DNA of 64,000 nucleotides from Hydrogenophilales bacterium CG12_big_fil_rev_8_21_14_0_65_61_21 (GTDB lineage Bacteria > Pseudomonadota > Gammaproteobacteria > Burkholderiales > Thiobacillaceae). Positions within the stretch are counted from its first letter, which is position 1; the number at the start of each line of letters is the position of its first letter. The stretch is taken from positions 1 through 64,000 of the forward strand of contig PFGT01000101.1 in the NCBI GenBank assembly GCA_002782005.1, given 5' to 3'. This document shows positions 25,308-40,117 of the stretch, in pieces. Both the position numbers and the translations under genes were made by a program. Below the pieces are notes generated by a model. It did not search any database. It worked only from the letters and a program-made list of their open reading frames with translations, and had not been told where the DNA came from.

Positions 25308-25383
25308 TGGTGCCGGTGAAAGGAGTCGAACCCTCGACCTTCGCATTACGAATGCGCTGCTCTACCAACTGAGCTACACCGGC
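25308..25383 (-). tRNA. tRNA-Thr(CGT)
   Basis: GCCGGTGTAGCTCAGTTGGTAGAGCAGCGCATTCGTAATGCGAAGGTCGAGGGTTCGACTCCTTTCACCGGCACCA: 7-bp acceptor, D and T arms, anticodon loop TTCGTAA, encoded CCA. Confidence 0.97.
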
Positions 25384-26447
25384 GCGGCGCGGATTATATC
25401 AGGCCAAGTGAATAAACGAAGGGTCGGTTCCGGTGTTTTCCCGGTCATTAGATCGGCGAGTAATTCAGCGCTGGCGGGGGCCAGGGTGACGCCATAGCGG
25501 AAATGGCCGCTGTTGACGAACAGGTTTTCCAGGATCGGGTGCCGGGCGATTATGGGTATGTTGTCCGGGGCGCCAGGCCGCAGACCGGCCCAGTGCCGGA
25601 TCGGGCCGCTGGCGGCGACGTCTGGCAACAGGCGCGACATGAAGCCATGCAGTCGGTCGCGCGCTTCAACGGTGGTGGTCTTGTCGAAGCCGACGTCTTC
25701 CAGCGTGCTGCCGGCGAGTATGTGACCGTCGGCGCGCGGCACCAGATATTGGCCAGCCTCATACAGTATGCACGGCAGCCGTCCTGGCTCGGTTCGGTAG
25801 AGCAGCATCTGGCCGCGTATGGGGCGGATCGGCAGCCCGGCAGCGTGCTGATCCAGTAGATTCGCGCTCCAGGCACCGGTGGCGACGACGAACTGGTCGG
25901 CTGGCCAGCGCCGGTCGCCGGAAACAGCGGCGGTCACCCGGTTGGCCTGGGTGGTCAGGCTGATCGTTCCGATTTCGCTATGGATGGTCACCCCAAGCCG
26001 ACGTAGACCTTCCAGCAAGGCTTGAAGAAGACGTGGATTGCGGACCTGCGCGACCTCTGGCAGCCAGAGACCCGGGCCGAATCCGGTCAGCGCGGCGGGT
26101 GCGACCGTTGCGGCCTGGCCGGCAAACCCTGTTTCGGCTTGTGCCCGGTCATAGGGCGCCCGTATCAACATGCCCGTTCGGCGATATTCCGGGTCGATGG
26201 CGGCGGTCTTGTGGATGGCGTCGATCCAGTCTGGATACAGGGCCTGGCTGTGCTCGGTCAATGCCCGGAGCGGCGCCGGGTAATTCCATGGCAACAGCAG
26301 GCTGAGTATGCCGGCGCCTGCCCACGAGGCTTCCTGGCCGGGCGTGCCGCGTTCCAGCACTTCGACCTGGGCGCCGCGGCGGGCAAGTTCCCAGGCAGAG
26401 GCTAGTCCGGCGATGCCGGCGCCGATAACGACAATAGGCTTGCTCAC
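25374..26447 (-). CDS. thiO: Glycine oxidase ThiO-like FAD-dependent oxidoreductase (GTG start at 26447 preferred)
   Basis: PIVVIGAGIAGLASAWELARRGAQVEVLER, C-terminal FVNSGHFRYGVTLAPASAELLADLM. Confidence 0.87.
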   Translation of the reverse strand: MSKPIVVIGAGIAGLASAWELARRGAQVEVLERGTPGQEASWAGAGILSLLLPWNYPAPLRALTEHSQALYPDWIDAIHKTAAIDPEYRRTGMLIRAPYDRAQAETGFAGQAATVAPAALTGFGPGLWLPEVAQVRNPRLLQALLEGLRRLGVTIHSEIGTISLTTQANRVTAAVSGDRRWPADQFVVATGAWSANLLDQHAAGLPIRPIRGQMLLYRTEPGRLPCILYEAGQYLVPRADGHILAGSTLEDVGFDKTTTVEARDRLHGFMSRLLPDVAASGPIRHWAGLRPGAPDNIPIIARHPILENLFVNSGHFRYGVTLAPASAELLADLMTGKTPEPTLRLFTWPDIIRAAPV

Positions 26448-26534
26448 TGGGTCGGGTTCATAGTCGGAGTCGGGCCATTCTAGCAAAGCCGGCCAGCGGC
26501 GTTAGAATGTCCCTGTTCGCCGGAGAGAATCCCA

Positions 26535-36074: not shown

Positions 36075-37382
36075 ATGACGTTTAACAAACTTGCAATTGC
36101 CCTGGCCGTAGCCGGAGTTTCAACCGGCGCCTATGCCACCAACGGTATGAATATGGAGGGTTATGGCCCCATTTCGACCAGCATGGGCGGCACATCTTTT
36201 GCTTATGACAATGGTACGGGTGCGATGGCTGGTAACCCGGCGACCCTGGGGCTGATGACCGACGGTTCCCATTTGGACGTAGCTGTAGGCGTATTACAGC
36301 CCGATATCACAGTGCAAGGTGGCCAGAGTTCGACCGCTACCTCATTTCTTATGCCGGCCATCGGCTGGGTCAAGAAGAATGGCAATCTGGCCTATGGCGC
36401 GGGCATGTTCGCCCAGGGCGGCATGGGTACGGACTATGCGCAGGGTATCGATGGCCAACCCGAGCGCTCCGAGTTAGGCGTCGGCCGTTTGATTTTTCCC
36501 GTGGCATTCCAGGCCACTCCCGACTTGGTGGTCGGCGGTTCGATCGATTTCGTCTGGGCGATGATGGACCTTAGAATGGCCATGCCGCTGCAAAATATGG
36601 CTGGCCTGATTACCCCGACCGGACAGGGTAACGGCACCATCTTGGGCGCGCTGGGCGGCATGATGCAGTCCGGTGCCTACACCAATGCCCGTCTCGATTT
36701 CAGCGACAATAACGACTTCACTGGTAAGGCCCGCGGTTTCGGTTACGCCGGCAAGCTGGGCCTGACCTACAAGGCCTCGCCGACCGTGACCATCGGCGCG
36801 GTGTATGAGTCGAAGACCTCCCTGGGCGACATGAAGACGCCCGATACCGGTGCCACCATGATCGTTACCGGCGTGGGTCCGACCCAGGCCATTCCGGGCA
36901 AGATTACGATACGCGATTTCCAGTGGCCAGAGATGTTTGGCCTAGGTATCGCCGTGCAGGCTACGCCTGACTTGATGGTGGCCGCAGATGTCAAGCACAT
37001 CGGCTGGTCCGGCGTCATGGAGAACTTCACCATGACCTATGCCGCCTTTGGCGATAACGTCACGTTCGCGTTGCCACAAAATTGGGAAGATCAGACCGTA
37101 TTGAGTCTGGGCGGCGCCTATAAGGTGAATAATGCGCTGACCCTGCGTGCCGGTGCCAATCTTGCCGACAATCCGGTTCCGGACGCCACGATGCACTATT
37201 TGTTCCCGGCTATCATCAAGAATCACTACACGGCCGGCCTGGGCTATGTCATCGACCCGGCATCCGAGGTGAACGTCTCGCTGGTTTATGCACCCAAGGT
37301 CACTCAGACCAATTCGACCTTCGGTTATACCGTTACCCACAGCCAGACCAACTGGCAGTTGATGTACAGCCGCAAGTTCTGA
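36075..37382 (+). CDS. OmpP1/FadL-family outer membrane transporter
   Basis: Signal peptide, NGMNMEGYGPISTSMGGTSFAYDNGTGAMAGNPATLGL; beta-rich, C-terminal aromatic SRKF. Confidence 0.88.
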   Translation: MTFNKLAIALAVAGVSTGAYATNGMNMEGYGPISTSMGGTSFAYDNGTGAMAGNPATLGLMTDGSHLDVAVGVLQPDITVQGGQSSTATSFLMPAIGWVKKNGNLAYGAGMFAQGGMGTDYAQGIDGQPERSELGVGRLIFPVAFQATPDLVVGGSIDFVWAMMDLRMAMPLQNMAGLITPTGQGNGTILGALGGMMQSGAYTNARLDFSDNNDFTGKARGFGYAGKLGLTYKASPTVTIGAVYESKTSLGDMKTPDTGATMIVTGVGPTQAIPGKITIRDFQWPEMFGLGIAVQATPDLMVAADVKHIGWSGVMENFTMTYAAFGDNVTFALPQNWEDQTVLSLGGAYKVNNALTLRAGANLADNPVPDATMHYLFPAIIKNHYTAGLGYVIDPASEVNVSLVYAPKVTQTNSTFGYTVTHSQTNWQLMYSRKF

Positions 37383-37402
37383 TTACTGAAGTCGCTTGAT
37401 CG

Positions 37403-37439
37403 ATGGGGCCGGCCTGTTTGGGTTGGCCCCATTTTATTT
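37403..37439 (+). terminator. Intrinsic terminator after fadL-like gene
   Basis: TGGGGCC ... GGCCCCA followed by TTTTATTT. Confidence 0.75.
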
Positions 37440-37446
37440 GGTTTGG

Positions 37447-37615
37447 CTAGGAGCCTGTCGGACTTATGGGGATCGAAGCGAAAAGTCGGCTGGGCGAAGA
37501 CAGATTTTGCCGATTTTGCCGGTCAATAGTCGTTCTATTGACCAAAAAAGCGGTGAAAGATGGACCGCTCAGGCGGATTTGCAGCCGATTCATCATAAGT
37601 CCGATAGGCTCCTAG
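37447..37615. mobile_element. MITE-like non-autonomous element (161 bp, 37451-37611) with CTAG flanks
   Basis: TIRs GAGCCTGTCGGACTTATG / CATAAGTCCGATAGGCTC (17 of 18), CTAG at both boundaries, central perfect hairpin GGTCAATAG-TCGTT-CTATTGACC at 37521-37543. Confidence 0.75.
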
Positions 37616-38347
37616 TTCGCTCGGCAGATCGGGTTGGGACCGGGATTGGCTAAAGCGGCCGACCAGCATCTGCCGTTTACTGGCAAAGCCAGGCGTCTTT
37701 TCTACGCTGAAACCGGCTTGTTGCAGCCCTGTCCTGACCGTAGCCGAGACGCTCCAGGTGGCGACAGTGGCGTCGGTATTGGCCAGCCGACCGATCTGAC
37801 CGAGAACGTCGGCTGACCAGAGGTCCGGGTTTTTGCCTGGTGCGAAACCATCCAGATAAACCGCATCGACCCTGGCCTGGAGTTGGGTCAACACCTTGGC
37901 GGCATCGCCCAATAGCAAGGTCAGTACCAACCGGCCGCCGGCAAACTCGATGCGGTGCAAGCCGGGCGTTAAAGTCGGCCAGTGGGCGCGTAGTTCGGCG
38001 GCGAGTTCGACGAACTCCGGCCAGGCGGCCTGGATGACGGTCAGATCGTCAGCCCGGAATGGGTGCTTCTCCACCGATAGATAGTGCAGCCGCCGGCAGG
38101 CTTGCGGGTCATCGCGCCAGGCTTGCCAGGTGGCCAGGAAATTGAGGCTGGCGCCGAAGCCGGTTTCCAGGATGGCGAAGTGGTCTCGGTCGCGCCAGCG
38201 TTCCGGCAGGCGATTACCGGCCAGAAAGACGTGGCGGGCCTGGCCGGGGCCGCCGCCATCGGAATGGTAGATGTCGCCATATTGAATGGAAAACGGGATG
38301 CCGTTCTCGGAAAAGGCCAGGGTGGCGGGGACCAACGGTTCGTACAT
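37535..38347 (-). CDS. mnmC: MnmC-type tRNA nm5s2U methyltransferase domain (no FAD oxidase domain), C-terminus encoded by the MITE
   Basis: FSIQYGDIYHSDGGGPGQARHVFLAGNRLPERW, AILETGFGASLNFL, DAVYLDGFAPGKNPDLW, GFASKRQMLVGRF; no FAD-binding domain follows. Confidence 0.85.
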   Translation of the reverse strand: MYEPLVPATLAFSENGIPFSIQYGDIYHSDGGGPGQARHVFLAGNRLPERWRDRDHFAILETGFGASLNFLATWQAWRDDPQACRRLHYLSVEKHPFRADDLTVIQAAWPEFVELAAELRAHWPTLTPGLHRIEFAGGRLVLTLLLGDAAKVLTQLQARVDAVYLDGFAPGKNPDLWSADVLGQIGRLANTDATVATWSVSATVRTGLQQAGFSVEKTPGFASKRQMLVGRFSQSRSQPDLPSELGAYRTYDESAANPPERSIFHRFFGQ

Positions 38348-38443: not shown

Positions 38444-40117
38444 GTGATCCATCTTGTTCTGTGCTGGCATTTTCACCAGCCCGATTATCGTACCGAAGAT
38501 GGGCAATATTTTCTGCCCTGGACCTACCTCCATGCCATCAAGGACTACGCAGACATGGCGGCGCACCTCGAAGCGCGGCCCGAGATGCAGGCGGTGGTCA
38601 ATTTTGTCCCCACCTTACTCGAACAACTGGACGATTATGTCGAACAGTTCCGTAGCGGCGTAATCCGCGACCCGCTCCTGGCCGCCCTGGCCGAGCCGAA
38701 CCTGGAGGGTATGAACATCGAGGCACGGCGCCAGTTGGTCACCGCTTGCTTCAGGCTAAATTTCCCGACCATGCTGGACCCCTTTCCGGGCTATCGCCGG
38801 CTGCAACGACTCTGGCAGGGGCTGAAAGAAGACGGAGAACCGGCCATCGATTACCTGTCCGGGCAATACCTGGCCGACCTGGTGACCTGGTATCACCTCG
38901 CCTGGACCGGCGAGACCCTGCGCCGGGAGCATGGCTGGCTGGTTCACTTGCTGGATAAGGGCAGCGGTTTCAGCCTGGAAGATCGCCAGCAGTTGTTCCG
39001 CCTGATCGGCGAGGTCATTGCTGATCTGGTACCGCGTTTTAAGGCCCTGGAGGCCAAGGGCCAGATCGAGTTGTCGGCGACCCCGCATAGTCACCCGATC
39101 GGGCCGCTTCTGCTCGATTTCCAGGCGGCGCGCGAGGCGCGGCCAGGGTTGTCGTTGCCGGCCAGCGCTGGCTATCCCGGCGGCGCGGAGCGCTTTGGGG
39201 TCCATATCCGCGCAGCGCAGGAGGTCCATAGCGACCATTTCGGTAAACGGCCACAAGGTTTTTGGCCGGCCGAAGGCGGCATCTCGACGCCGGTGCTTGA
39301 ACTGTTTTCCAGGGCGAGTGTCCGCTGGGCGGCCAGCGGCGAAGGCGTGTTGCGCCACAGCCTGCGCGCGGCCGGCCTGGACGCCGCCCATCCGGCTCCA
39401 TGGCTGTATAGTCCCTGCCGCCTACCGGGCCAGAGCACGGCCTGTTTCTTCCGCGACGATTACCTGTCCGACCTGATCGGCTTCGAATATAAGGGCTGGT
39501 TCGCCGAGGACTCGGTGCGTCATTTCATCCATGCGTTGGACGAACGCGAACGCAATTCCAGCATCCCCGATCCGGTGGTGACGGTGATCCTGGATGGCGA
39601 AAACGCCTGGGAGTACTACCCTTACAATGGCTGGTATTTCCTGTCCGAACTGTATCAAGCCTTGGCTGAGCACCCGACGATCCGGGTGACGACCTTCTCG
39701 GATTATTTAGACCTTTTTCCGGACAACGTAGCGGCCTTGCCGGTCATGACCGCCGGCAGTTGGGTCTATGGTGATTTCACCACCTGGATGGGCGATCCCG
39801 CCAAAAATCGGGCCTGGGATATGTTGTGCGTGGCCAAGCTGGCTTATGACGAGCGCCTGGCAAGCGGCAGCTTGCCGAAGGACGTCGAGCGGCAGGCGGA
39901 GATGCAGCTTCGCTCTTGCGAGAGTTCAGACTGGTTCTGGTGGTTTGGCGATTACAACCCTGGCGATAGCGTTGAGGCCTTCGACAGGCTTTACCGGAGC
40001 AAGCTGAAGCGGCTTTATCACCTGCTAGGCCTGCCCGTTCCGGCCGTCCTGTATGTGCCGCTCTGCCAGGGCGGTGGCCCGGTTGAGGCCGGCGGAGTGA
40101 TGCGTCGGGGCGGTTGA
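38444..40117 (+). CDS. Glycoside hydrolase family 57 protein (GTG start)
   Basis: MIHLVLCWHFHQPDYR, GFWPAEGGISTPVLELF, VTVILDGENAWEYYPYNG. Confidence 0.9.
   Translation: MIHLVLCWHFHQPDYRTEDGQYFLPWTYLHAIKDYADMAAHLEARPEMQAVVNFVPTLLEQLDDYVEQFRSGVIRDPLLAALAEPNLEGMNIEARRQLVTACFRLNFPTMLDPFPGYRRLQRLWQGLKEDGEPAIDYLSGQYLADLVTWYHLAWTGETLRREHGWLVHLLDKGSGFSLEDRQQLFRLIGEVIADLVPRFKALEAKGQIELSATPHSHPIGPLLLDFQAAREARPGLSLPASAGYPGGAERFGVHIRAAQEVHSDHFGKRPQGFWPAEGGISTPVLELFSRASVRWAASGEGVLRHSLRAAGLDAAHPAPWLYSPCRLPGQSTACFFRDDYLSDLIGFEYKGWFAEDSVRHFIHALDERERNSSIPDPVVTVILDGENAWEYYPYNGWYFLSELYQALAEHPTIRVTTFSDYLDLFPDNVAALPVMTAGSWVYGDFTTWMGDPAKNRAWDMLCVAKLAYDERLASGSLPKDVERQAEMQLRSCESSDWFWWFGDYNPGDSVEAFDRLYRSKLKRLYHLLGLPVPAVLYVPLCQGGGPVEAGGVMRRGG

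Follow-up and report, generated by a model that had tools for sequence, protein, structure and literature searches.

A MITE-capped, stand-alone MnmC2 methyltransferase gene that most likely arose by earlier domain loss at an mnmC locus

Known MnmC2 proteins and the single-domain protein of the window

A stand-alone form of MnmC2 is known from Aquifex aeolicus (DUF752, PDB 3VYW) (PMC3648344, PMC3936742). The bifunctional MnmC of E. coli (YfcK, 3PS9/3AWI) and Y. pestis (3PVC/3SGL) carries, in addition to the methyltransferase (MT) domain, a FAD oxidase domain, MnmC1. The MnmC domains of E. coli act independently; MnmC(m) works without MnmC(o) and is able to act on the ammonium-pathway product (PMC3936742). 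C-termini encoded by small mobile elements have also been described, namely for the RU elements of enterobacteria (PMC2759123) and the QMITEs of Coxiella (PMC5896051).

The window, which is the whole stretch of 64,000 nucleotides that was analysed, contains on its minus strand an open reading frame of 270 amino acids (37535..38347), of which residues 1–244 are ancestral and residues 245–270 are derived from a MITE. Profile matches and structure matches assigned the product to the MnmC2/MnmD-type tRNA methyltransferases. NF033855 gave 226.9 bits against a curated cut-off of 136, and PF05430 gave 127.9 against a cut-off of 22 (2.6e-37). Profiles, homologue alignment and the predicted structure together delimited a complete MnmC2 domain at residues 1–237, and the structural homologues of the methyltransferase were the MnmC proteins of E. 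coli and Y. pestis and Aquifex MnmC2 (3VYW). The bifunctional enzymes align with the protein over residues 3–242 through their MT domain, and differ from it in that the window protein is without the FAD oxidase domain. Like Aquifex DUF752, it is a single-domain SAM methyltransferase of the MnmC2 family with no fused MnmC1, for which an MnmD-like action may be inferred. Unlike DUF752, it is much closer in sequence to the MnmC2 part of the bifunctional MnmC of proteobacteria, its gene derives from domain loss at a known locus, and it has a MITE-encoded tail and a Ser in place of the SAM-loop glycine.

The first-pass annotation had proposed that a bifunctional gene had been reduced to an MnmD-like stand-alone methyltransferase lacking the oxidase domain, and the data bore this out. 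The FAD oxidase profile (TIGR03197) had no match over cut-off in the genome of the window or in the sister genome G006, and neither was among the 47 of 61 profiled genomes in which MnmC1 scored above cut-off. Most relatives encode a full-length MnmC of about 600–650 amino acids, and a genome of the same genus, G005, encodes the bifunctional protein at the same locus. The description of the remaining protein as MnmD-like, with a single methyltransferase domain and a tail derived from the element, is hence supported.

Other outcomes were seen among more distant genomes. Propionivibrio dicarboxylicus DSM 5885 and an Accumulibacter MAG have similar MT-only genes that end just after the MT domain, with no FAD domain in the approximately 4 kb that follow the gene; these two domain losses are apparently independent. 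Three members of the family (G018, G023 and G029) showed no MnmC2 match and no MnmC1 match above cut-off, and apparently lost MnmC completely. At one further locus (L034; G001, contig C23, 48482-50370) the MT domain and the FAD domain are read in different frames and meet or overlap, representing either two adjacent genes or an assembly frameshift.

The MITE and the protein tail that it encodes

The element is 169 bp long (37447..37615), has the ends CTAGGAGCCTGTCGGACTT... and carries CTAG at each end, a possible 4-bp target duplication. Its 22-nt terminal inverted repeats (37447..37468 on the left and 37594..37615 on the right) are 95% complementary, with a single mismatch, and a central hairpin, GGTCAATAG-TCGTT-CTATTGACC, occupies 37521..37543. 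The minus strand folds with -71.7 kcal/mol (z = -8.2 versus shuffled sequences), and the element is far beyond chance. It is short, contains no transposase gene and occurs as several dispersed copies with unrelated flanks. A total of 27 matches were present in its own genome, near-full-length copies among them, and this abundance identifies the element as a genuine MITE. No autonomous parent insertion sequence was found: pairs of repeat ends in the same genome and on two contigs of G034 delimited short elements only, and a plasmid search with the MITE gave no match.

Further copies are present in related genomes of the family and the order, and many are found elsewhere in G006. The highest identity, up to 89%, was reached in G074, which belongs to another family within this order. 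Two copies of that genome (L070 and L084) are 88–89% identical to the window copy, which is nearer than most copies of the window's own genome; this closeness suggests that the element is likely to have spread horizontally.

Codon 245 of the reading frame begins exactly at 37615, the last base of the MITE, so that exactly 26 codons (245–270) and the stop are element-derived (37535..37615, minus strand). This agrees with the earlier estimate of about 26 codons. The reading frame ends in LGAYRTYDESAANPPERSIFHRFFGQ and a TAG stop at 37537-37535, which lies, as also proposed, in the right arm (37535-37543) of the central hairpin. The insertion point had been placed directly after GFASKRQMLVGRF and had to be moved: 12 linker codons, SQSRSQPDLPSE, separate the GRF residues from the MITE, and the insertion hence lies at the end of the former interdomain linker. 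Residues 238–270 had pLDDT values below 50 in the predicted structure, and the tail is accordingly predicted to be disordered.

Enterobacterial RU-1 (ECA3499) and Coxiella QMITE2 (EnhC) provide the closest parallels, in that the final residues of a host protein, beyond its conserved domain, come from a small non-autonomous element (PMC2759123, PMC5896051); they differ in belonging to other element families and in affecting other host genes. Another copy of the present family ends murC on contig C92 of the window's genome, with the ending ...KLAALGACQT and a stop. Copies on contig C13 of the same genome (L003) and on contig C18 of G006 (L086) likewise end host reading frames, the endings being ...ARSLSDL and ...EGLLGACRT, and in G006 one copy ends an SPFH-like frame (named by resemblance). 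C-terminal capping by this MITE family is recurrent.

The mnmC locus in related genomes and the order of events

The methyltransferase gene is bordered by two synteny markers, both named by resemblance: a convergent gene for a fadL-like outer-membrane protein (36075..37382, plus strand) and a divergent GH57-like gene (38444..40117, plus strand). The same neighbours enclose a full-length mnmC with an open frame of 652 codons in G005, and in G006 an MT-only gene whose product is 82% identical to that of the window, with no MITE at the site and no FAD domain over cut-off. This observation is at odds with the first-pass suggestion that a mobile element had separated or terminated the bifunctional gene, for which a MITE-free relative with the same protein had been named as the refuting case. 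G006 is essentially such a case, with a single-domain gene at the same locus; its frame ends in other tail residues, because without the MITE its reading frame runs into the convergent terminator and overlaps the 3' end of fadL by 35 nt. Since G006 lost the FAD domain and has no MITE, the FAD half was most likely deleted before the MITE arrived.

The far side of the junction retains the end of the old gene. A relic of the mnmC 3' end, CCAAATAA (37434..37441, minus strand), is now out of frame and lies 5 bp from the MITE; it matches ...ACCAAATAA of G005, whose gene ends in ...GGTACCAAATAA, and is directly followed by the conserved terminator hairpin of the fadL-like gene (37402..37433), which is present in G005 and G006 as well. 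This position of the relic indicates that the FAD half was deleted and not displaced. No FAD-coding DNA was found past the MITE, from which the fadL terminator is no more than 15 bp away. A search for an orphan MnmC1/FAD-domain gene elsewhere in the genome, as the first-pass annotation had recommended, returned sub-cut-off matches of the MnmC1 profile only. The best of these, at 25374-26486 in the same window, is the glycine oxidase ThiO and scores above the ThiO cut-off; that ThiO is the only strong MnmC1-like match agrees with the structural relationship that has been published for MnmC1 and glycine oxidase (PMC3648344).

When the flanks were joined around one CTAG to reconstruct the empty site, a single-domain reading frame of 285 codons resulted, with a 58-nt antisense overlap with the 3' end of fadL. 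The MITE therefore did not split a gene; it shortened a read-through tail. The 3' breakpoint of the deletion is common to the genomes (CCAAATAAAATGGGG in the window's genome, ACCAAATAAAATGGGG in G005 and TCCGATAAAAAAAGGGG in G006), and the 5' breakpoints are unlike, about 12 linker codons being retained in the window and the G006 domain ending right after GRF. Either G006 was trimmed further, or two separate domain losses are possible; in both cases G006 needed no MITE.

These unlike 5' breakpoints, together with a MITE edge that lies at the end of the linker and within 5 bp of the old 3' end, as an element-linked deletion would also predict, speak for a different history, in which the oxidase half was lost through an element-linked event, either adjacent deletion or recombination, that involved a MITE inserted in the linker or a pair of MITEs on both sides of the FAD domain; one MITE stayed behind, and G006 lost its FAD domain independently. 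The terminal CTAG does not discriminate here: it ends most full copies, is palindromic and indistinguishable from the terminal repeat, and no longer duplication was seen, so that no duplication scar can separate simple insertion from recombination, and an attempt to date the insertion by the target duplication was abandoned. We nevertheless regard an element-linked deletion as very unlikely, as it requires two independent FAD losses with the same 3' breakpoint in sister genomes, and as the free space at the junction is only about 60 bp, which makes proximity alone weak evidence. The claim that the MITE itself drove the split, a lineage-specific deletion having both removed the FAD half and, in the same step, left the methyltransferase with a new C-terminus and stop while G006 underwent a separate loss, has in our judgement an even slimmer chance of being correct.

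The age of the insertion was approached through the other copies. The window copy (contig C54) is 95% identical to a copy on contig C74 (169 bp) and 93% identical to one on C13 (135 bp aligned), and the synonymous divergence between the window's genome and G006 is about 0.44 (dS) for the MT gene and 0.48–0.65 for its neighbours. A twin of 95% identity set against a dS of about 0.44 between the species argues that the insertion is probably recent, although the 5% divergence does not date it if the C54 copy was the source of the C74 copy and not its sister. These comparisons suggest, short of proof, that the MITE arrived later than the species split. They also speak against the proposal that the common ancestor of the two genomes already carried the MITE, whether or not the MITE caused the deletion, and that G006 later lost it with the linker. 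The linker is indeed missing from G006 along with the MITE, and the same family is represented there by many copies; the window copy, however, falls with those of C74 and C13 (93–95% identical) in a subgroup set apart from the G006 copies (about 81%). Such a grouping ill suits an element in place since a split at a dS of about 0.44. We consider an ancestral MITE highly improbable.

The reading that we prefer, as the most likely one, is that of a MITE-capped stand-alone MnmC2 that arose by earlier domain loss. On this view, about 1.2 kb of a bifunctional mnmC at this locus, reaching from the linker between the two domains down to the final codons, would have been deleted, and the MnmC1 half lost with it. 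The deletion would have preceded the MITE and been independent of it; the simplest timing is in an ancestor shared by the window's genome and G006. With the old stop no longer in frame, the truncated reading frame would have continued through the terminator of the convergent fadL gene, a read-through that persists in G006. The 169-bp MITE would afterwards have landed on CTAG at the junction and provided a nearer in-frame stop and the disordered tail of 26 residues. We hold this account as a whole, including a product most likely acting as a stand-alone MnmC2, with good confidence.

Selection, residue 67 and expected function

Between the window's genome and G006 the dN/dS of the MT gene is 0.23 (0.19–0.42 for other pairs), with values of about 0.2–0.3 on each polarised branch. 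The branch leading to the window carries 27 synonymous and 18 nonsynonymous changes, well below the neutral expectation. Judged from these substitution patterns, the methyltransferase is under purifying selection.

One residue stands apart. Codon 67, AGC (38147..38149, minus strand), encodes Ser at a position of the SAM loop that is Gly in 97 of 97 homologues and corresponds to Gly-70 of E. coli (PMC3648344); the loop consequently reads GFGAS, in comparison with GFGxG in the family. The LDGF motif (D166) is retained, the family reference residues being E. coli Asp-178 and the GFGxG loop. Ser67 could mean that activity is lost or that SAM is bound differently, or it could be an error of the assembly, and the Gly-to-Ser change makes activity in this strain uncertain. 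In E. coli, nm5 accumulates in the G68D allele, which is near Gly-70 (PMC3936742). It is thus conceivable, and compatible with the preferred history, that the gene is a decaying, inactive remnant in which the SAM site was damaged after the FAD loss and in which the MITE landed while the gene was dying. We consider this unlikely, as none of the 56 alignment columns with at least 95% conservation is altered except that of Ser67, the frame contains no frameshift or internal stop, the substitutions on the window branch are predominantly synonymous, and the glycine is kept in G006.

The mnmG and mnmE genes are intact and score above cut-off in both the window's genome and G006 (TIGR00136, TIGR00450). 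The product would act as a stand-alone MnmC2 (MnmD) that converts nm5(s2)U34 from the ammonium branch of MnmEG into mnm5(s2)U, and the tRNAs of the glycine branch would stay at cmnm5(s2)U. From the domain independence of E. coli MnmC we infer that a stand-alone MnmC2 is expected to give mnm5(s2)U while cmnm5(s2)U persists.

The event is minor, and MITE-supplied protein tails are already published for other bacteria. It offers a small, well-resolved example of how an enzyme of tRNA modification went from bifunctional to single-domain within one bacterial genus, in which three states are seen: before the loss in G005, after it without the element in G006, and after it in element-capped form in the window. 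A mobile element at a domain boundary need not have caused the loss of the domain, and a MITE can give a nearer stop to a stop-less reading frame at a junction of convergent genes.
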